A DNA stretch of 39,481 bases, taken from assembly GCA_017453465.1 (NCBI GenBank), contig JAFTEV010000036.1, positions 1 to 39,481 on the forward strand, written 5' to 3'. The notes under the pieces are model-generated. The model saw nothing but the letters and a program-made list of their open reading frames with translations, ran no database searches and had not been told where the DNA came from. Below are positions 24,800 through 33,552 of this stretch, piece after piece; positions within the stretch are counted from its first letter, which is position 1, and the number at the start of each line of letters is the position of its first letter. The position numbers and the translations under genes were made by a program. The stretch is from Bacteroidaceae bacterium. Its GTDB lineage: Bacteria; Bacteroidota; Bacteroidia; Bacteroidales; Bacteroidaceae.

Positions 24800-26647
24800 A
24801 TGGCAGAAACATTGGAAGTAAAGGAATTGGCCGAAGTGGCCGTCCGTTTTTCGGGTGACTCTGGCGACGGAATGCAGCTCGCCGGAAACATTTTCTCTAC
24901 AGTTTCAGCTACTGTAGGCAATAGTATCAGTACTTTCCCCGACTATCCGGCTGACATCCGTGCCCCGCAGGGTTCGCTGACGGGTGTGAGCGGATTCCAG
25001 GTGCACATCGGTGCTGACATGGTCTATACGCCAGGCGACAAGTGCGATGTGCTCGTGGCCATGAACGCTGCGGCTCTGAAGACGCAGTATAAGTATGCAA
25101 AGCCAGGTGCAGCCATCATCATCGACACCGACTCTTTCCAGGCGGCTGACCTGAAGAAGGCTGCTTTTGCCACGGAAGACTATCTTGGCGAAATGGGCAT
25201 TGACCCCGACCGTGTGATTGCTTGCCCCATCACGCAGATGGTGAAGGACTGTCTGGCCGACAGTGGCATGGACGTGAAGGCAATGCTGAAGTGCCGCAAC
25301 ATGTTTGCACTGGGACTGGTCTGCTGGCTCTTCGACCGCGACCTCAACATTGCTTTCAATTTCTTGAAAGAGAAGTTTGCCAAGAAGCCCGGCGTAGCCG
25401 AAGCCAACATCAAGGTGATTCAGGCTGGCTACGACTATGGTCACAACACCCACAGCTCGGTAGCCAATGTCTATCGCATCGAGACCAAGCACAAGGTGCC
25501 GGGCCGTTACATGGACATCACGGGCAACAAGGCCACGGCCTACGGATTCATTGCCGCCGCAGAGAAGGCTGGACTGAAGCTCTATCTGGGTTCTTACCCC
25601 ATCACACCCGCTACCGATGTGTTGCACGAACTGAGCAAGCACAAGTCGCTCGGTGTAACGACCGTGCAGTGTGAGGACGAAATTGCTGGCTGCTCCTCTG
25701 CCGTAGGTGCTTCCTTTGCGGGTGCATTGGCTGTCACTTCCACGTCTGGCCCCGGCATCTGCCTGAAGTCGGAAGCCATGAACCTGGCTGTCATCATGGA
25801 GCTGCCGCTGGTGGTGCTCGACGTGCAGCGCGGCGGTCCTGCTACGGGTCTGCCCACGAAGTCGGAACAGACCGACCTCTTGCAGGCTCTCTTCGGACGT
25901 AATGGCGAAAGCCCCATGCCCGTCATTGCTGCCACCTCGCCAACGGACTGTTTCGATGCCGCCTACGCAGCCAGCAAGATGGCATTGGAGCACATGACTC
26001 CTGTCATCCTGATGACCGACGCTTACGTGGCCAATGGTTCAGCAGCCTTCAAGTTGCCCGACTTGGCCAGCTATCCAGCCATCAATCCACCCTACGTGCC
26101 CGAAGAACTCCGTGGCCAGTGGGCTCCCTACCTGCGCAATCCCGAAACGGGAGTACGCTACTGGGCTGTGCCTGGCCGTGAAGGTTTCCAGCACATCCTC
26201 GGCGGACTGGAGAAGGACAACAAGACGGGTGCCATCTCTACCGACCCCGAAAACCACAACTTGATGACTCATCTGCGTCAGGAGAAGATTGACAAGATTC
26301 CCGTGCCCGACCTCGAAGTGCTGGGCGACAAGGACGATGCCGACCTGCTCATCGTTGGCTTCGGCGGCACCTACGGACACCTCCACGCCGCCATGGACGA
26401 ACTCCGCAAGGCTGGCAAGAAGGTGGCTCTTGCCCACTTCAAGTACATCAATCCGCTGCCCAAGAACACAGCCGCCGTCCTCGGCAAATATCCCAAGGTG
26501 GTCGTTGCCGAACAGAACATGGGACAGCTTGCCGCCTGGCTCCGCATGAAGGTTGACAACTTCACCCCCTTCAAGTTCAACCAAGTGAAAGGCCAACCCT
26601 TCGTGGTGGAAGAACTGGTAGAAGCGTTTACACAAATAATATCATAA
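24800..26647 (+). CDS. korA: 2-oxoacid:ferredoxin oxidoreductase subunit alpha (KorA-type, gamma-alpha fusion)
   Basis: The product is 615 aa. With KorB it should convert 2-oxoglutarate (or another 2-oxoacid) and CoA to acyl-CoA with transfer of electrons to ferredoxin. The first 190 residues are the gamma domain (RFSGDSGDGMQLAGN, FPDYPADIRAP). A pyruvate-flavodoxin-type alpha domain follows (GSYPITPATDVLHEL, QCEDEIAGCSSAVGASFAGA, TSTSGPGICLKSEAMNLAV, QRGGPATGLPTKSEQTD), then a C-terminal domain (DDADLLIVGFGGTYGHLHAA). The partner korB lies downstream, but a GxxExxY cassette stands between them, starting two bases after this stop codon. Confidence 0.93.
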   Translation: MAETLEVKELAEVAVRFSGDSGDGMQLAGNIFSTVSATVGNSISTFPDYPADIRAPQGSLTGVSGFQVHIGADMVYTPGDKCDVLVAMNAAALKTQYKYAKPGAAIIIDTDSFQAADLKKAAFATEDYLGEMGIDPDRVIACPITQMVKDCLADSGMDVKAMLKCRNMFALGLVCWLFDRDLNIAFNFLKEKFAKKPGVAEANIKVIQAGYDYGHNTHSSVANVYRIETKHKVPGRYMDITGNKATAYGFIAAAEKAGLKLYLGSYPITPATDVLHELSKHKSLGVTTVQCEDEIAGCSSAVGASFAGALAVTSTSGPGICLKSEAMNLAVIMELPLVVLDVQRGGPATGLPTKSEQTDLLQALFGRNGESPMPVIAATSPTDCFDAAYAASKMALEHMTPVILMTDAYVANGSAAFKLPDLASYPAINPPYVPEELRGQWAPYLRNPETGVRYWAVPGREGFQHILGGLEKDNKTGAISTDPENHNLMTHLRQEKIDKIPVPDLEVLGDKDDADLLIVGFGGTYGHLHAAMDELRKAGKKVALAHFKYINPLPKNTAAVLGKYPKVVVAEQNMGQLAAWLRMKVDNFTPFKFNQVKGQPFVVEELVEAFTQIIS

Positions 26648-26648
26648 T

Positions 26649-27163
26649 AACCACTGATTACACGGATTACACAGATTGATGTGGCCAATTAAGAACAGAT
26701 TTCACAGATTGGGATGATGGAAGATTTTCTGTATAAAAGGGAAACATACAAGATTATTGGTGCAGCAATGGCTGTACATCGTGAGCTTGGATGTGGCTTT
26801 ACGGAAAAGGTCTATCAGGAAGCACTTGAAATGGAGTTTCAAGAACAAGAAATTCCTTATCAACGCGAAAAGCCTATCTATGCGAATTATCATGGTCATC
26901 AGTTGAAGACTGAGTTTGTGCCTGATTTCATCTGTTTTGATAATATCATTGTTGAACTGAAAGCCGTAAAAGATTTAGAAGACTATCATCGTGCCCAGGC
27001 TATCAATTATGCAAAGGTTGCCAAGGCCGACATAGCGCTTCTCATCAATTTTGGAAAGCGGTCCTTGCAACATGAACGCTACATCACTACGCAATAGCTT
27101 CAAATCTGTGTAATAAGTAATAAATTAAAGAGATAATCTGTGAAATCAGAGTAATCTGTGGTT
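26649..27163. mobile_element. Putative GxxExxY cassette with 29-bp terminal inverted repeats
   Basis: A 515-bp unit is bounded by imperfect inverted repeats (26649-26677 and 27135-27163) that match at 25 of 29 positions and consist of ACACAGATT words. Further CACAGATT words lie just inside on both sides (26695-26711 and 27103-27112). It contains only the small GxxExxY gene and is more AT-rich than korA and korB on either side. I see no clear target-site duplication. Calling it mobile is inference from its ends, its cargo and its position splitting a conserved gene pair. Confidence 0.6.
26714..27097 (+). CDS. GxxExxY protein (PD-(D/E)XK nuclease superfamily), copy 1
   Basis: The product is 127 aa. 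The name-giving motif is GFTEKVY (G28, E31, Y34). PD-(D/E)XK-type residues are seen as P70-D71 and E81-L-K83 (VPDFICFDN, then IIVELKAV), so a metal-dependent nuclease fold is likely, although no activity has been shown here. IIGAAMAVHRELGCG and HRAQAINYAK are conserved with the second copy in this window (33166-33552); about half the positions agree by eye. There is a neighbouring ATG at 26717. The gene is AT-rich, sits alone between korA and korB and lies inside a unit with inverted terminal repeats. Confidence 0.88.
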   Translation: MMEDFLYKRETYKIIGAAMAVHRELGCGFTEKVYQEALEMEFQEQEIPYQREKPIYANYHGHQLKTEFVPDFICFDNIIVELKAVKDLEDYHRAQAINYAKVAKADIALLINFGKRSLQHERYITTQ

Positions 27164-27188
27164 CACATAAATAAACAAATAAAAAGTT

Positions 27189-28193
27189 ATGGCATATACA
27201 GCACAAGACTATAAGAAAGGACAGCCACGTTGGTGTCCTGGATGTGGAGACCACTTCTTCCTCGCCTCACTCCACAAGGCAATGGCAGAAATCGGTGTTG
27301 AACCTTGGAACACTGCCGTCATTTCAGGCATAGGATGTTCATCGCGACTGCCACACTACATGGCCACTTACGGCATGAATACCATCCACGGACGTGCAGC
27401 AGCCATTGCCACAGGCGCAAAGGTTGTCAACCCCAAGCTGGCCGTATGGCAGGTCAGTGGCGACGGCGACGGACTGGCCATCGGTGGCAACCACTTCATT
27501 CACGCCAATCGTCGCAATATCAACCTCAACATGATTCTGCTGAACAACCGCATCTACGGACTCACCAAGGGACAGTATTCGCCCACCAGCCCACGCGGTT
27601 TCGTCAGCAAGTCCAGTCCTTACGGCACCGTGGAAGACCCCTTCCGCCCTGCTGAACTCTGCTTTGGCGCACGCGGCCACTTCTTTGCACGCGCCGTAGC
27701 CACCGACGCTCCAGGCACCGTGGAAATTCTGAAGGCTGCCTACCAGCACAAAGGTGCCGCCGTCTGCGAAATCCTTCAGAACTGCGTCATCTTCAACAAC
27801 GGCACACACGACACTGTCTATTCAAAGGAAGGACGTGCCAAGAACGCCATCTACGTGCAGCACGGCAAACCCCTCATCTTCGGTGAAAACAACGAATACG
27901 GCCTTGTGCAGGAAGGCTTTGGCCTGAAGGTCGTAGAGATAGGCAAGGACGGCGTGACTGAAGCCGACATCCTTGTGCACGATGCTCATTGCCAAGACAA
28001 CACCCTCCAGCTGAAGCTCGCCCTCATGGGTAACGGCGACGGCTTCCCCGTGGCTCTCGGTGTCATTCGCGATGTGGATGCGCCTACCTACGATGACTGC
28101 GTCAATGCCCAAATCGAAGAGGTGAAAGCCGCCAAGAAATACCACAACTTCGCAGAACTTCTTGAAACCAACGACATCTGGGAAGTGAAATAA
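27189..28193 (+). CDS. korB: 2-oxoacid:ferredoxin oxidoreductase subunit beta (KorB-type)
   Basis: The product is 334 aa, the thiamine-diphosphate subunit paired with KorA. Visible features are WCPGCGDHFF near residue 15 (conserved cysteines), GIGCSSRLPHY, HGRAAAIATGAK, the TPP/magnesium motif SGDGDGLAIGGNH, then LLNNRIYGLTKGQYSPTS. The length is usual for KorB. It normally follows korA closely; here the gap is 541 nt and filled by the GxxExxY cassette. Translation of korB may depend on read-through of transcription across the cassette. Confidence 0.94.
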   Translation: MAYTAQDYKKGQPRWCPGCGDHFFLASLHKAMAEIGVEPWNTAVISGIGCSSRLPHYMATYGMNTIHGRAAAIATGAKVVNPKLAVWQVSGDGDGLAIGGNHFIHANRRNINLNMILLNNRIYGLTKGQYSPTSPRGFVSKSSPYGTVEDPFRPAELCFGARGHFFARAVATDAPGTVEILKAAYQHKGAAVCEILQNCVIFNNGTHDTVYSKEGRAKNAIYVQHGKPLIFGENNEYGLVQEGFGLKVVEIGKDGVTEADILVHDAHCQDNTLQLKLALMGNGDGFPVALGVIRDVDAPTYDDCVNAQIEEVKAAKKYHNFAELLETNDIWEVK

Positions 28194-28209
28194 TATCACA
28201 CTAAACAAC

Positions 28210-28818
28210 ATGGATAAACTCTCTTATTCACTCGGTCTCGGCATTGGTCAGCAACTGATGCAAATGGGACTGAAAGACACACTCGTTATCGAAGACTTTG
28301 CAGCTTCCATTACAGACGTGCTGCAAGGCAACACACTCAAGGTCAGCCATCAGGAAGGACAGCAAATCGTCAGCAAGTTCTTCGCCGACATGGAAGCCAA
28401 GCAGAAGGCCGCTGCCGCTGAAGCAGACAAGGCAGCCAAGCAGCTGGGCGAACAGTTTCTGGCTGAAAATGCCAAGCGCGACGGCATTACCACGACCAAG
28501 AGCGGCCTTCAGTACGAAGTGCTCAGCGAAGGCACAGGTCGCCAGCCCAAAGCCACCGACACCGTGCGCTGCCACTACGAAGGCCGACTCATCGACGGCA
28601 CTGTCTTCGACTCCTCCTACAAGCGCAATGCGCCAGCCGACTTCGGTCTTCAGCAGGTCATTGCGGGCTGGACAGAAGGCGTACAGCTGATGAAGGAAGG
28701 CTCCAAGTTCCGCTTCTACATCCCCTATATGCTTGCATACGGAGAGGGTGGGGCAGGTGCCATGATTCCTCCCTACTCAGCCCTCATTTTCGATGTCGAA
28801 CTGATTAAAGTGTTATAA
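28210..28818 (+). CDS. FKBP-type peptidyl-prolyl isomerase
   Basis: The product is 202 aa and should speed up proline cis/trans change during protein folding. The N-terminal 100 residues look like the helical dimerisation part of FkpA/Mip proteins (SLGLGIGQQLMQMG, an Ala/Lys/Glu-rich helix). The C-terminal part is the FKBP domain (VRCHYEGRLIDGTVFDSSY, QVIAGWTEGVQLM, FYIPYMLAYG, LIFDVELIKV). There is no signal peptide, so it would be cytoplasmic, unlike most Mip-like proteins. It starts 16 nt after korB and is probably co-transcribed. Confidence 0.92.
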   Translation: MDKLSYSLGLGIGQQLMQMGLKDTLVIEDFAASITDVLQGNTLKVSHQEGQQIVSKFFADMEAKQKAAAAEADKAAKQLGEQFLAENAKRDGITTTKSGLQYEVLSEGTGRQPKATDTVRCHYEGRLIDGTVFDSSYKRNAPADFGLQQVIAGWTEGVQLMKEGSKFRFYIPYMLAYGEGGAGAMIPPYSALIFDVELIKVL

Positions 28819-28837
28819 CCCTCTGAGGGAATAACGC

Positions 28838-28961
28838 AGTTAAGGAGTTAAGTAGTTAAGCCAATATCGACAGACCAGTAACAGCTTGACTTCTTAACTC
28901 CTTAACTGCTTCCAGAAGCCAGTAACTCCTTAACTTCTTAACTCCTTAACTCCTCAACTTC
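28838..28961. repeat. AACTCCTT palindromic element, copy 2
   Basis: TTAAGGAGTTAAGTAGTTAA on the left (28839-28858) pairs with TTCTTAACTCCTTAACTGC on the right; further AACTCCTT units run up to the start codon of the SGNH hydrolase gene. The same family fills 6130-6309. Confidence 0.8.
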
Positions 28962-28962
28962 A

Positions 28963-29640
28963 ATGAAAATCCAAAACCTCTTAGCCTTATTCCTCCTGCT
29001 GCCATGCTTCGCTTCCCCCCTCTGTGCACAGCAGGTGCTCAACATCATTGGCGACTCTTACGTGGCCAACCATCGCCGTCCCAAGGAAGAAGCATGGCAC
29101 TACAAGATGGCCACAAACCTTGGCCTTACCTATAACAACTACGGACGCAATGGCTCCTGTGTAGCTTTCGACCGCACGCACGACGGCAAGTACAACTTTG
29201 GCCCTGCCATGTGGGTGCGCTACAAGGAAATGGACCCCACCGCCGACTACGTCATCATCATCGCAGGACACAACGATGCCGGCAAGGTAAACGACAACCC
29301 CGACTCGCTCCGTATGTTCTGCGATTCGCTCGAAGCCCTCATCACGGGCATTCAGCAGCTTTGTCCCAAGGCCAAAATTGGCTACGTCACACCGTGGTAT
29401 GTTGACCGCCCAGGCTTCCAGTCCGTATGCAAGACCATCAAGAAAGTCTGCAAACGCCACCACATCCCTGTGCTCTGGAACTACACGTCCAAATGCGTGA
29501 TTCAGGTACGCAACGATGACTTCCGCCGCCAATACTTTCAGGGTCCCAACGACACGGCTCACCTGAATGCCGCAGGCCACGACCTCTTCCTCCCCATCGG
29601 CACGGCTTGGTTCCAGAAGTACATGCTGAAACGGCCATGA
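28963..29640 (+). CDS. Secreted SGNH/GDSL-type hydrolase
   Basis: The product is 225 aa with a signal peptide (hydrophobic LLALFLLLPCF, cleavage near LCAQ). The SGNH blocks are visible: IIGDSYV with the serine at 32, NNYGRNGS, IIIAGHNDAG, and the final DTAHLNAAGH with Asp and His. It is predicted to hydrolyse an ester or deacetylate a glycan outside the cytoplasm; the substrate is unknown. A repeat element lies immediately upstream, and the gene is followed by another repeat element and a terminator. Confidence 0.88.
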   Translation: MKIQNLLALFLLLPCFASPLCAQQVLNIIGDSYVANHRRPKEEAWHYKMATNLGLTYNNYGRNGSCVAFDRTHDGKYNFGPAMWVRYKEMDPTADYVIIIAGHNDAGKVNDNPDSLRMFCDSLEALITGIQQLCPKAKIGYVTPWYVDRPGFQSVCKTIKKVCKRHHIPVLWNYTSKCVIQVRNDDFRRQYFQGPNDTAHLNAAGHDLFLPIGTAWFQKYMLKRP

Positions 29641-32898: not shown

Positions 32899-32917
32899 TG
32901 AACACGAATGATATTTT

Positions 32918-33141
32918 TTTTCAACACGAATTACACGAAACTTCACGAAGCTATGCAGATTGAAGAATTTACACAAAACGCCTTGACGGCGACGAATTTC
33001 ACGAACCTTCGGCTCGGTGTAGCCTGCTGTCTATCTGGATGGTTCGTGACATTCGTAGCACGTCAAGTGCTCCTTCGTGGAATAACATCTGCCACAAGAT
33101 AGTTGAAGGTTCGTGAAGTTTCGTGTAATTCGTGTTGAAAA
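32918..33141. repeat. CACGAA palindromic element, copy 2
   Basis: A 224-bp element with perfect 32-bp inverted ends (32918-32949 and 33110-33141). Its centre (160 nt) is related to that of copy 1 at 123-329: both have AATTTCACGAA, GGATGGTT, CGTCAAG and AACAT-TGCC stretches in the same order. An extra AACACGAATGA lies just outside on the left. It ends about 24 nt before the second GxxExxY gene. Confidence 0.88.
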
Positions 33142-33165
33142 ATAGCATTTGTGTTTGAGGTAAAA

Positions 33166-33552
33166 ATGTCAACGGGCATGAAGGAAATTATTTATAAAGA
33201 AGAAAGTTATGCCATCATTGGTGCCGCATTGGAAGTGCACAAAATACTTGGATGTGGATTTGCCGAGAAGGTATATCAAGACGCTTTAGAAATAGAGTTT
33301 ACTCAAAGAAATATTCCTTTTCAGCGTGAGAAACATTTGCCCGTTTCGTATAAGGGGCTGCAAATAAAACATGACTTCTTTGCTGATTTTATTTGTTATG
33401 ATAAAATCGTCATAGAATGTAAGGCTGTTGCAGGGCTTCTGCCTATCCATCAAGTTCAAACACTGAATTATCTCAAAATAGGGCAATTCAAATTAGGCTT
33501 GCTTATAAACTTTAGTCAACAAAACTTAGAATATAAACGAATTGTAAACTGA
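33166..33552 (+). CDS. GxxExxY protein (PD-(D/E)XK nuclease superfamily), copy 2
   Basis: The product is 128 aa from the ATG at 33166; other possible starts are GTG 33151 and ATG 33178. The motif GFAEKVY (G31, E34, Y37) is present. The nuclease-type residues are D74 (ADFICYDK, with Ala instead of Pro before it) and E84-C-K86. It resembles copy 1 at 26714 over its whole length, yet the two are clearly diverged, so they are not a recent duplication. The gene is AT-rich. Its TGA stop shares a base with the ATG of the M16 peptidase (TGATG). It directly follows the CACGAA element. Activity is unproven. Confidence 0.87.
   Translation: MSTGMKEIIYKEESYAIIGAALEVHKILGCGFAEKVYQDALEIEFTQRNIPFQREKHLPVSYKGLQIKHDFFADFICYDKIVIECKAVAGLLPIHQVQTLNYLKIGQFKLGLLINFSQQNLEYKRIVN

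Follow-up and report, generated by a model that had tools for sequence, protein, structure and literature searches.

A GxxExxY nuclease-fold gene in a module-ended cassette between korA and korB: a candidate nuclease-helped mobile palindrome

The window analysed here, a 39,481-nt stretch of DNA from a Bacteroidaceae bacterium, carries between korA and korB a 515-bp cassette (26649–27163) with one GxxExxY gene between inverted ends, and the same ends recur elsewhere in the source genome around short elements that have no gene. Many bacterial genomes carry cassettes of this type, with or without the gene, and this recurrence points to a poorly known kind of mobile DNA. The 515-bp unit may be a short mobile palindrome in its gene-bearing form, and we give about even chances to the reading that it is a nuclease-helped, REPIN/RAYT-like mobile palindrome, the helper being a minimal RecB/Cas4-like nuclease and not a transposase. 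The features are as follows.

24800–26647, + strand: left neighbour, korA-type 2-oxoacid:ferredoxin oxidoreductase subunit with POR and POR_N domains (Pfam/NCBIfam match)
26649–26677, + strand: left end, three 9-nt modules (AA CCACTGATT ACACGGATT ACACAGATT) (inverted-arm and module comparison)
26694–26710, + strand: left inner modules (AACAGATT TCACAGATT), also present inside gene-less copies (word search)
26714–27097, + strand: GxxExxY gene, 127 aa, predicted minimal RecB/Cas4-like PD-(D/E)XK fold with invariant E, Y, D, ExK and QxxxY (profiles, alignment and predicted fold)
27103–27119, − strand: right inner module(s) (AATCTGTGTAATAAGTA on the + strand) (inverted-arm and word search)
27135–27163, − strand: right end, three 9-nt modules, inverted (inverted-arm and module comparison)
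27189–28193, + strand: right neighbour, korB-type subunit with the TPP enzyme C-terminal domain (Pfam/NCBIfam match)

An earlier sequence-only reading had described 29-bp inverted ends, a start two bases past the korA stop, a small PD-(D/E)XK-type gene as sole content, a composition more AT-rich than that of korA and korB, and an end word repeated just inside both ends, and all of this was borne out. The two 29-nt arms, 457 nt apart, match at 25 of 29 positions (86% complementary), and none of 200 dinucleotide shuffles of 26400–27400 reached this value (maximum 21), ruling out a chance inverted repeat as the origin of the ends. The korA stop occupies 26645–26647, so the cassette starts at the second base past this stop. 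Besides the GxxExxY gene, a single listed ORF lies inside, with 65 aa and on the opposite strand. GC was 0.36–0.40 in windows wholly or mostly in the cassette, compared with approximately 0.54–0.62 in korA and korB. The CACAGATT word recurs at 26694–26710 and 27103–27119, with six matches in the window at up to two mismatches against 0.37 expected. The ends are arrays of three 9-nt modules (xCxCxGATT) rather than plain terminal inverted repeats, with one or two further modules just inward of each arm.

The window holds other palindromes as well. A second GxxExxY gene is present at 33178–33552, and directly upstream of it is a complete gene-less palindrome (32917–33142) of CACGAATT words with 33-nt perfect arms; this arrangement of gene and upstream palindrome recurs by eye in G021, G012 and G018 (L106, L109 and L180). 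By eye, a gene-less palindrome of GTTAAGGAGTTAAG words, somewhat like those flanking four-helix-bundle genes elsewhere, follows the gene at 28210–28818 (28838–28962). No known RNA family reached the gathering score in 26500–29100, the cassette being without any match, and four sub-threshold miRNA-family matches at 28810–28928 were taken as hairpin artefacts.

The cassette protein is a member of TIGR04256 (E 2e-41, 141 bits against a curated cut-off of 35) and PF13366 (E 1e-38, 132.8 bits against a cut-off of 22). By sequence, no relative of known structure was found (best E 0.25). Its AlphaFold2 model (pLDDT 95.8) gave as top Foldseek match in the PDB SSO0001 (E 5.7e-4, TM 0.59 by query), which we take to be a Cas4 and which was the only row under E 0.001; further matches were to a DinG, AdnAB, an alkaline exonuclease, RecE and the Cas4 Pcal_0546, with RNA-splicing endonucleases and a weak match to I-Bth0305I lower down. 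Alignment of 23 diverse GxxExxY members showed E30, Y33, D70, E80, K82, Q94 and Y98 (126-aa numbering) to be invariant, and no conserved cysteine was present in these 23 rows. The D...ExK...QxxxY residues are presumably those named as motifs of RecB/Cas4-like PD-(D/E)XK nucleases, and together with the predicted core fold the catalytic D, ExK and QxxxY place the protein in that group, as a predicted minimal member. A weak match to the phage endonuclease I profile (E 0.029, below its cut-off, and E 0.5 in another search) is not significant and at most hints at junction cutting, and in PHROGs two matches near E 4e-4 were to an endonuclease and a CRISPR-associated family.

Of 17 gene pairs tried for dN/dS, six were saturated and 11 gave a ratio, ten of 0.01–0.12 and one of 0.40 with few changes, showing from codon comparison that the GxxExxY gene is under purifying selection; selection of this kind would also suit a gene domesticated at its fixed site. 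A phage origin was rejected (tblastn matches in 0 of 50,697 phage records and 8 of 72,556 plasmid records), as was a defence system (no PADLOC model at E <= 1), and no helicase or CRISPR gene lies immediately beside the cassette gene. The literature searched, a scope outside which most subscription journals lay, yielded no function for GxxExxY proteins and no match to six repeat words of 15–17 letters.

We then compared the korA-korB site among relatives. The genus search covered 45 genomes, 40 of them with matches, and the gap was read at 30 loci including that of the source genome (G000); the gaps of G018 and G036 (~200 and ~440 bp by match coordinates) are outside these 30. The gap was empty at 21 loci (22–24 nt), confirming that korA and korB are normally adjacent, and held a GxxExxY cassette, with its gene on the kor strand, at all nine others, the source locus included. 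Empty sites in relatives thus exist as anticipated, but their junctions do not coincide exactly with 26649 and 27163: in the source genome 26 nt of the gap are left outside the cassette, compared with 22–24 nt in the empty gaps, the sequence has diverged, and no exact empty-site junction was found. By eye, the end words are of a GATT class in G000, G037 and G030 and of a CGAAT class in G012, G010, G014, G015, G026 and G043, and within one element the modules of both arms mostly agree. Arrays of CGATAATT words with another GxxExxY subfamily were seen ~2 kb from the gap on the korA side in G012, G014 and G041 (L191, L211 and L128).

The kor and GxxExxY trees conflict in their inner groupings. 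The kor tree joins G000 and G037 as sisters (98/93), the empty G042 being next to them, whereas a sister pairing of their GxxExxY proteins is rejected (AU p 0.0001); conversely, kor rejects the groupings favoured by the GxxExxY tree, G037 with G030 (p 0.019) and G000 with G026 and G043 (p 0.010). The tested groups were chosen after the trees had been seen, and recombination of kor itself could contribute. One clade of the nine filled kor rows was not rejected (p 0.12), and the nine korA-korB GxxExxY proteins form one group (76/85, unstarred). A single insertion followed by simple descent was set aside on the conflict of inner groupings; gain, loss and exchange may each have played a part. Cassettes of different lineages at one site might instead reflect a homing-endonuclease-like gene whose nuclease cuts the empty korA-korB gap and which is then copied in by gene conversion. 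The tree discordance would suit this, as would the korA-korB gap of G024 (L114), which holds a distant GxxExxY gene whose words are different, and the presence of I-Bth0305I, a PD-(D/E)XK-like homing endonuclease, among the weak fold matches. The many unrelated sites, the gene-less copies and the shared ends, which homing genes do not need, make it distinctly improbable.

The source genome assembly is 85% complete and 6% contaminated. At up to three mismatches the end pattern matched 55 places in it, compared with none for the reversed control, as 20 converging pairs and 15 unpaired matches. Eighteen of the pairs are gene-less elements of 127–218 bp and the remaining two are the korA-korB cassette and one duplicate contig copy, a ratio of gene-less to gene-bearing forms of 18 to 1 for this word, so that a search for the 29-bp ends with and without the gene, as had been proposed, recovered both forms. 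These converging pairs are dispersed extragenic inverted doublets of the REPIN type; five of the 18 gene-less elements overlapped an ORF of at least 120 codons by more than 40 nt, such ORFs covering 70% of the sequence of the loci. The same stretch was seen on two contigs in G000 (C5/C86, 281 nt identical) and in G014 (C45/C54, equal match scores), and some copy counts may therefore be inflated by assembly redundancy. In one stretch (L345, G000 C27:2054-2487), CGAAT-word elements lie in or beside CACAGATT-word ends, two of them in tandem.

Eighteen elements, the korA-korB cassette among them, were compared, leaving out the pair on C86, which lies in 281 nt that repeat part of C5 exactly in reverse complement, and one other pair that had no full flanks. 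C at module positions 2 and 4 and the GATT were nearly fixed, and other positions varied. Left arms resembled their own right arms (0.864) about as they did those of other elements (0.855), with 903 of 5000 permutations as high. Conserved modules whose arms do not covary suit a protein-bound motif better than hairpin pairing alone, and hairpin pairing as the sole cause of the ends was rejected. A target-site duplication was not detected among these elements (4 of 18 with at least 5 nt, against 17% in the null), and old insertions could have lost theirs.

The same comparison bears on whether the ends pair as a stem in korAB RNA, to be excised or processed RNase III style, with the protein acting on its own hairpin RNA. 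The 23S rRNA intervening sequence shares the layout of terminal inverted repeats and a small ORF (described in the available part of PMC4990558), and the gene follows the kor strand in every filled gap. Such an element is quite unlikely here, given arms without covariation beyond chance and best fold matches that are DNA nucleases, though RNA-splicing endonucleases stand lower down.

Unpaired end matches were examined for 13 of the 15, at 12 places, the two near contig starts being left out. Five places had a partner 61–436 bp off with no gene noted, and seven had none within 900 nt. Inward of these partnerless ends, where 122–1500 nt were available, the longest frames of six ends matched a carbamoyltransferase, YceG, DUF3990 or nothing, that of the seventh having only 31 aa. 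Thus no transposase was found in the paired elements or in the six scanned frames of this incomplete genome.

It is very unlikely, in our view, that the cassette is a static remnant of an old insertion, no longer mobile, in which slippage and palindrome correction keep the repeats alike; its retention in several species under purifying selection would be expected on that account, whereas the scatter of copies with the same ends, the nested copies, the presence/absence pattern and the tree conflict would not. The presence/absence, copy number, nesting and tree conflict support the idea, already put forward from the window, of a minimal mobile unit, whose movement we infer.

Next, we asked how general the inverted flanks are. 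TIGR04256 was detected in 152 of 296 phylum genomes at E <= 0.001 (149 over the curated cut-off), with up to 12 matches per genome. In a first set of 59 GxxExxY loci (30 from the phylum and 29 from the genus, 57 usable), 33 of 57 had an inverted flank score of at least 12, compared with 0 of 66 other ORFs, 24 of 600 mispaired flanks and 0 of 285 shuffles. Forty further genus loci were added, and under a looser score with 200-nt flanks, a setting without a control, 42 of the 50 rows listed scored at least 12. A second set was drawn from the best 80 of 565 loci in a genome collection, these 80 coming from Bacteroidota, Ignavibacteria, Planctomycetota, Cyanobacteria, Chloroflexota and others. Of them 70 were tested (left out were five short or frameshifted, one at an edge and four not entered), and 44 of 70 reached 12; among displaced controls 2 of 260 did so, and among mispaired flanks 85 of 800. 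The high mispaired values of both sets fit words that are common to several species. Below the threshold were 24 of 57 loci in the first set and 26 of 70 in the second. Relatives without the cassette exist and inverted ends flank many other GxxExxY genes, so that neither outcome that would have told against the earlier reading was seen.

The words themselves follow the protein. The shared-word signature was found in 146 of 171 distinct elements, a mark that mispaired flanks also reached in 402 of 1000 cases. With 103 pairs in homologous surroundings left out, word sharing occurred in less than 1% of pairs below 30% protein identity and in 20% above 60%, and it correlated with protein identity (Mantel r 0.24, null maximum 0.079 in 2000 permutations).

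The repeat population of a genome follows the gene as well. The three-module CACAGAG pattern was present in 50 of 296 phylum genomes, and TIGR04256 in 47 of these compared with 105 of the 246 negative genomes (Fisher 1.7e-12), the gene being absent from three of the 50; the link held without the large family f17 (4.6e-8) and on within-family permutation (7/5000). The CACAGAG counts take in the flanks of the GxxExxY genes themselves. They lie far above gene number in some genomes, as in G228 with 12 matches and one gene, and in G000, among the matches listed, 0 of 26 repeats lay on C8 or C30, the contigs of its three genes. Within the genus, the three GATT-class cassette genomes were the richest of 38 in CACAGATT arrays (44, 34 and 26; next 11), which was noticed afterwards. 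For CGAAT arrays the prediction was written down before the test, and the six CGAAT-class genomes had 6–62, the median of the other 39 genomes being 1 (p 3e-4), a value that, like the other genus array p-values, overstates independence since lineages are few (about five); G007 (41) and G037 (27) were also CGAAT-rich. The class of the cassette word was the commoner of the two searched in nine of nine korA-korB cassette genomes, at pattern stringencies that differ, and the word carried by the G037 cassette (CACGGATT/AACGGATT) is no more than a variant of that genome's commonest repeat.

Four-helix-bundle genes (TIGR02436), which are not nucleases, also have inverted flanks: of 30 loci 28 were usable, and 10 of these 28 scored at least 12. 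The palindromes may thus be driven by something more general, and these flanks are the most serious counter-evidence to nuclease-driven movement. Their flanks use other words, such as CTAAGATTCTGAG (L149–L178). TIGR02436 was present in 223 of 296 phylum genomes and in 47 of the 50 CACAGAG-positive ones (Fisher 5e-4), an association lost within families (1266/5000). The palindromes might be spread by a different enzyme, such as an IS transposase working on the ends, with small genes like GxxExxY and four-helix-bundle genes merely captured. The four-helix-bundle flanks speak for such captured passengers, and a Porphyromonas MITE with IS5-type ends is known (available part of PMC4596501). Three observations make this unlikely: the word follows GxxExxY identity across non-homologous sites, the repeats follow TIGR04256 far better than TIGR02436 within families, and the paired elements and scanned frames held no transposase.

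A second site gave a similar picture with a different word. In G012 it holds a GxxExxY gene with A-rich modules, and by eye no such element is present in G010, G043, G007 or G037; G014 and G015 have a gene-less element of another word there, and G000 another hairpin. A 2-kb query from G012 gave 85 matches in G014, 44 in G007, 31 in G030 and 27 in G037 (flank and gene matches included), most of those listed falling on the ~55-nt ends of the cassette, some as converging pairs, as in G014. Of 20 G014 regions read, 19 were gene-less, and a palindrome of ~100–350 bp was visible in most of these; the G014 gene matched that of the query at 74%. One gene-less palindrome in G014 (L248, C42) lies within ~1 kb of a GxxExxY gene, both having a rarer CCAG word variant that differs by eye from the other G014 copies compared. 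G010 and G015 had flank matches only (two and four), and no GxxExxY gene of the A-rich-word subfamily was recognized in G015 or in G010, two of whose four genes were unread. A-rich repeats without a gene of that subfamily were seen in G000 and, as far as five of six genes read allow, in G030, which counts against a strict link between repeat and gene.

Taken together, our results are best read as follows. The 9-nt end modules, xCxCxGATT in this cassette, would be binding sites for the only product of the element, the GxxExxY nuclease, which would recognize them at both ends and cut or process the element, possibly as a cruciform or a single-stranded hairpin; host repair would then put a copy back into AT-rich intergenic gaps. 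Copies without the gene but with the modules would be mobilized in trans, much as RAYTs are thought to mobilize REPINs. We think it most likely that the nuclease recognizes the modules and drives the movement of both forms, recognition being read from the correlation of word with protein; the route of binding, cutting and re-insertion we infer. Against nuclease-driven movement counts a lone nuclease without obvious joining chemistry. More tentatively, and with rather more doubt than belief, we suggest that a kind of mobile DNA extends over several phyla in which a minimal RecB/Cas4-like nuclease takes the place of the transposase and sets the word by its preference, gene-less palindromes are parasitic on it, and the words of each genome evolve in concert; palindromes of four-helix-bundle genes, and with them rRNA intervening sequences, may form a sister class.

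A link between GxxExxY proteins and these repeats would offer a testable substrate for a protein of a common family (about half of the sampled phylum genomes), would explain a class of intergenic repeats (CACAGAG, CACAGATT and CGAAT types), suggests a nuclease-only route to mobility and may bear on the spread of rRNA intervening sequences.

Among known systems, RecB/Cas4-like nucleases (SSO0001, AdnAB, RecE and Exo5) share the predicted fold and D...ExK...QxxxY, whereas GxxExxY proteins have only 126–127 aa and lack conserved cysteines (23 rows), and no helicase or CRISPR gene adjoins the one in the korA-korB cassette of the window. The 23S rRNA intervening sequence, with its S23/four-helix-bundle ORF, likewise places a small ORF inside terminal inverted repeats (available part of PMC4990558); the present cassette sits in the korA-korB gap, between protein genes rather than in an rRNA gene, and encodes a predicted nuclease of another fold. 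MITEs such as BrickBuilt, with IS5-type ends, are short, gene-less and bounded by terminal inverted repeats (in the part of PMC4596501 available), as are the gene-less copies here, which differ in having module-array ends, no detected target-site duplication and no transposase-bearing parent with these ends found here. The closest likeness is to REPIN/RAYT systems, in which numerous copies of short palindromic extragenic elements are found, each repeat type having its own distinct helper gene next to it, the RAYTs being single-copy Y1 transposases seemingly unable to move themselves (from the accessible part of PMC3116915). The elements described here share the short palindromic, multi-copy, extragenic form and a distinct helper gene for each repeat type, but the helper is a PD-(D/E)XK protein by Pfam/NCBIfam match and fold rather than a Y1/HUH transposase, it often lies inside the palindrome with up to a dozen matches in one genome, and the ends are built of tandem 9-nt modules.
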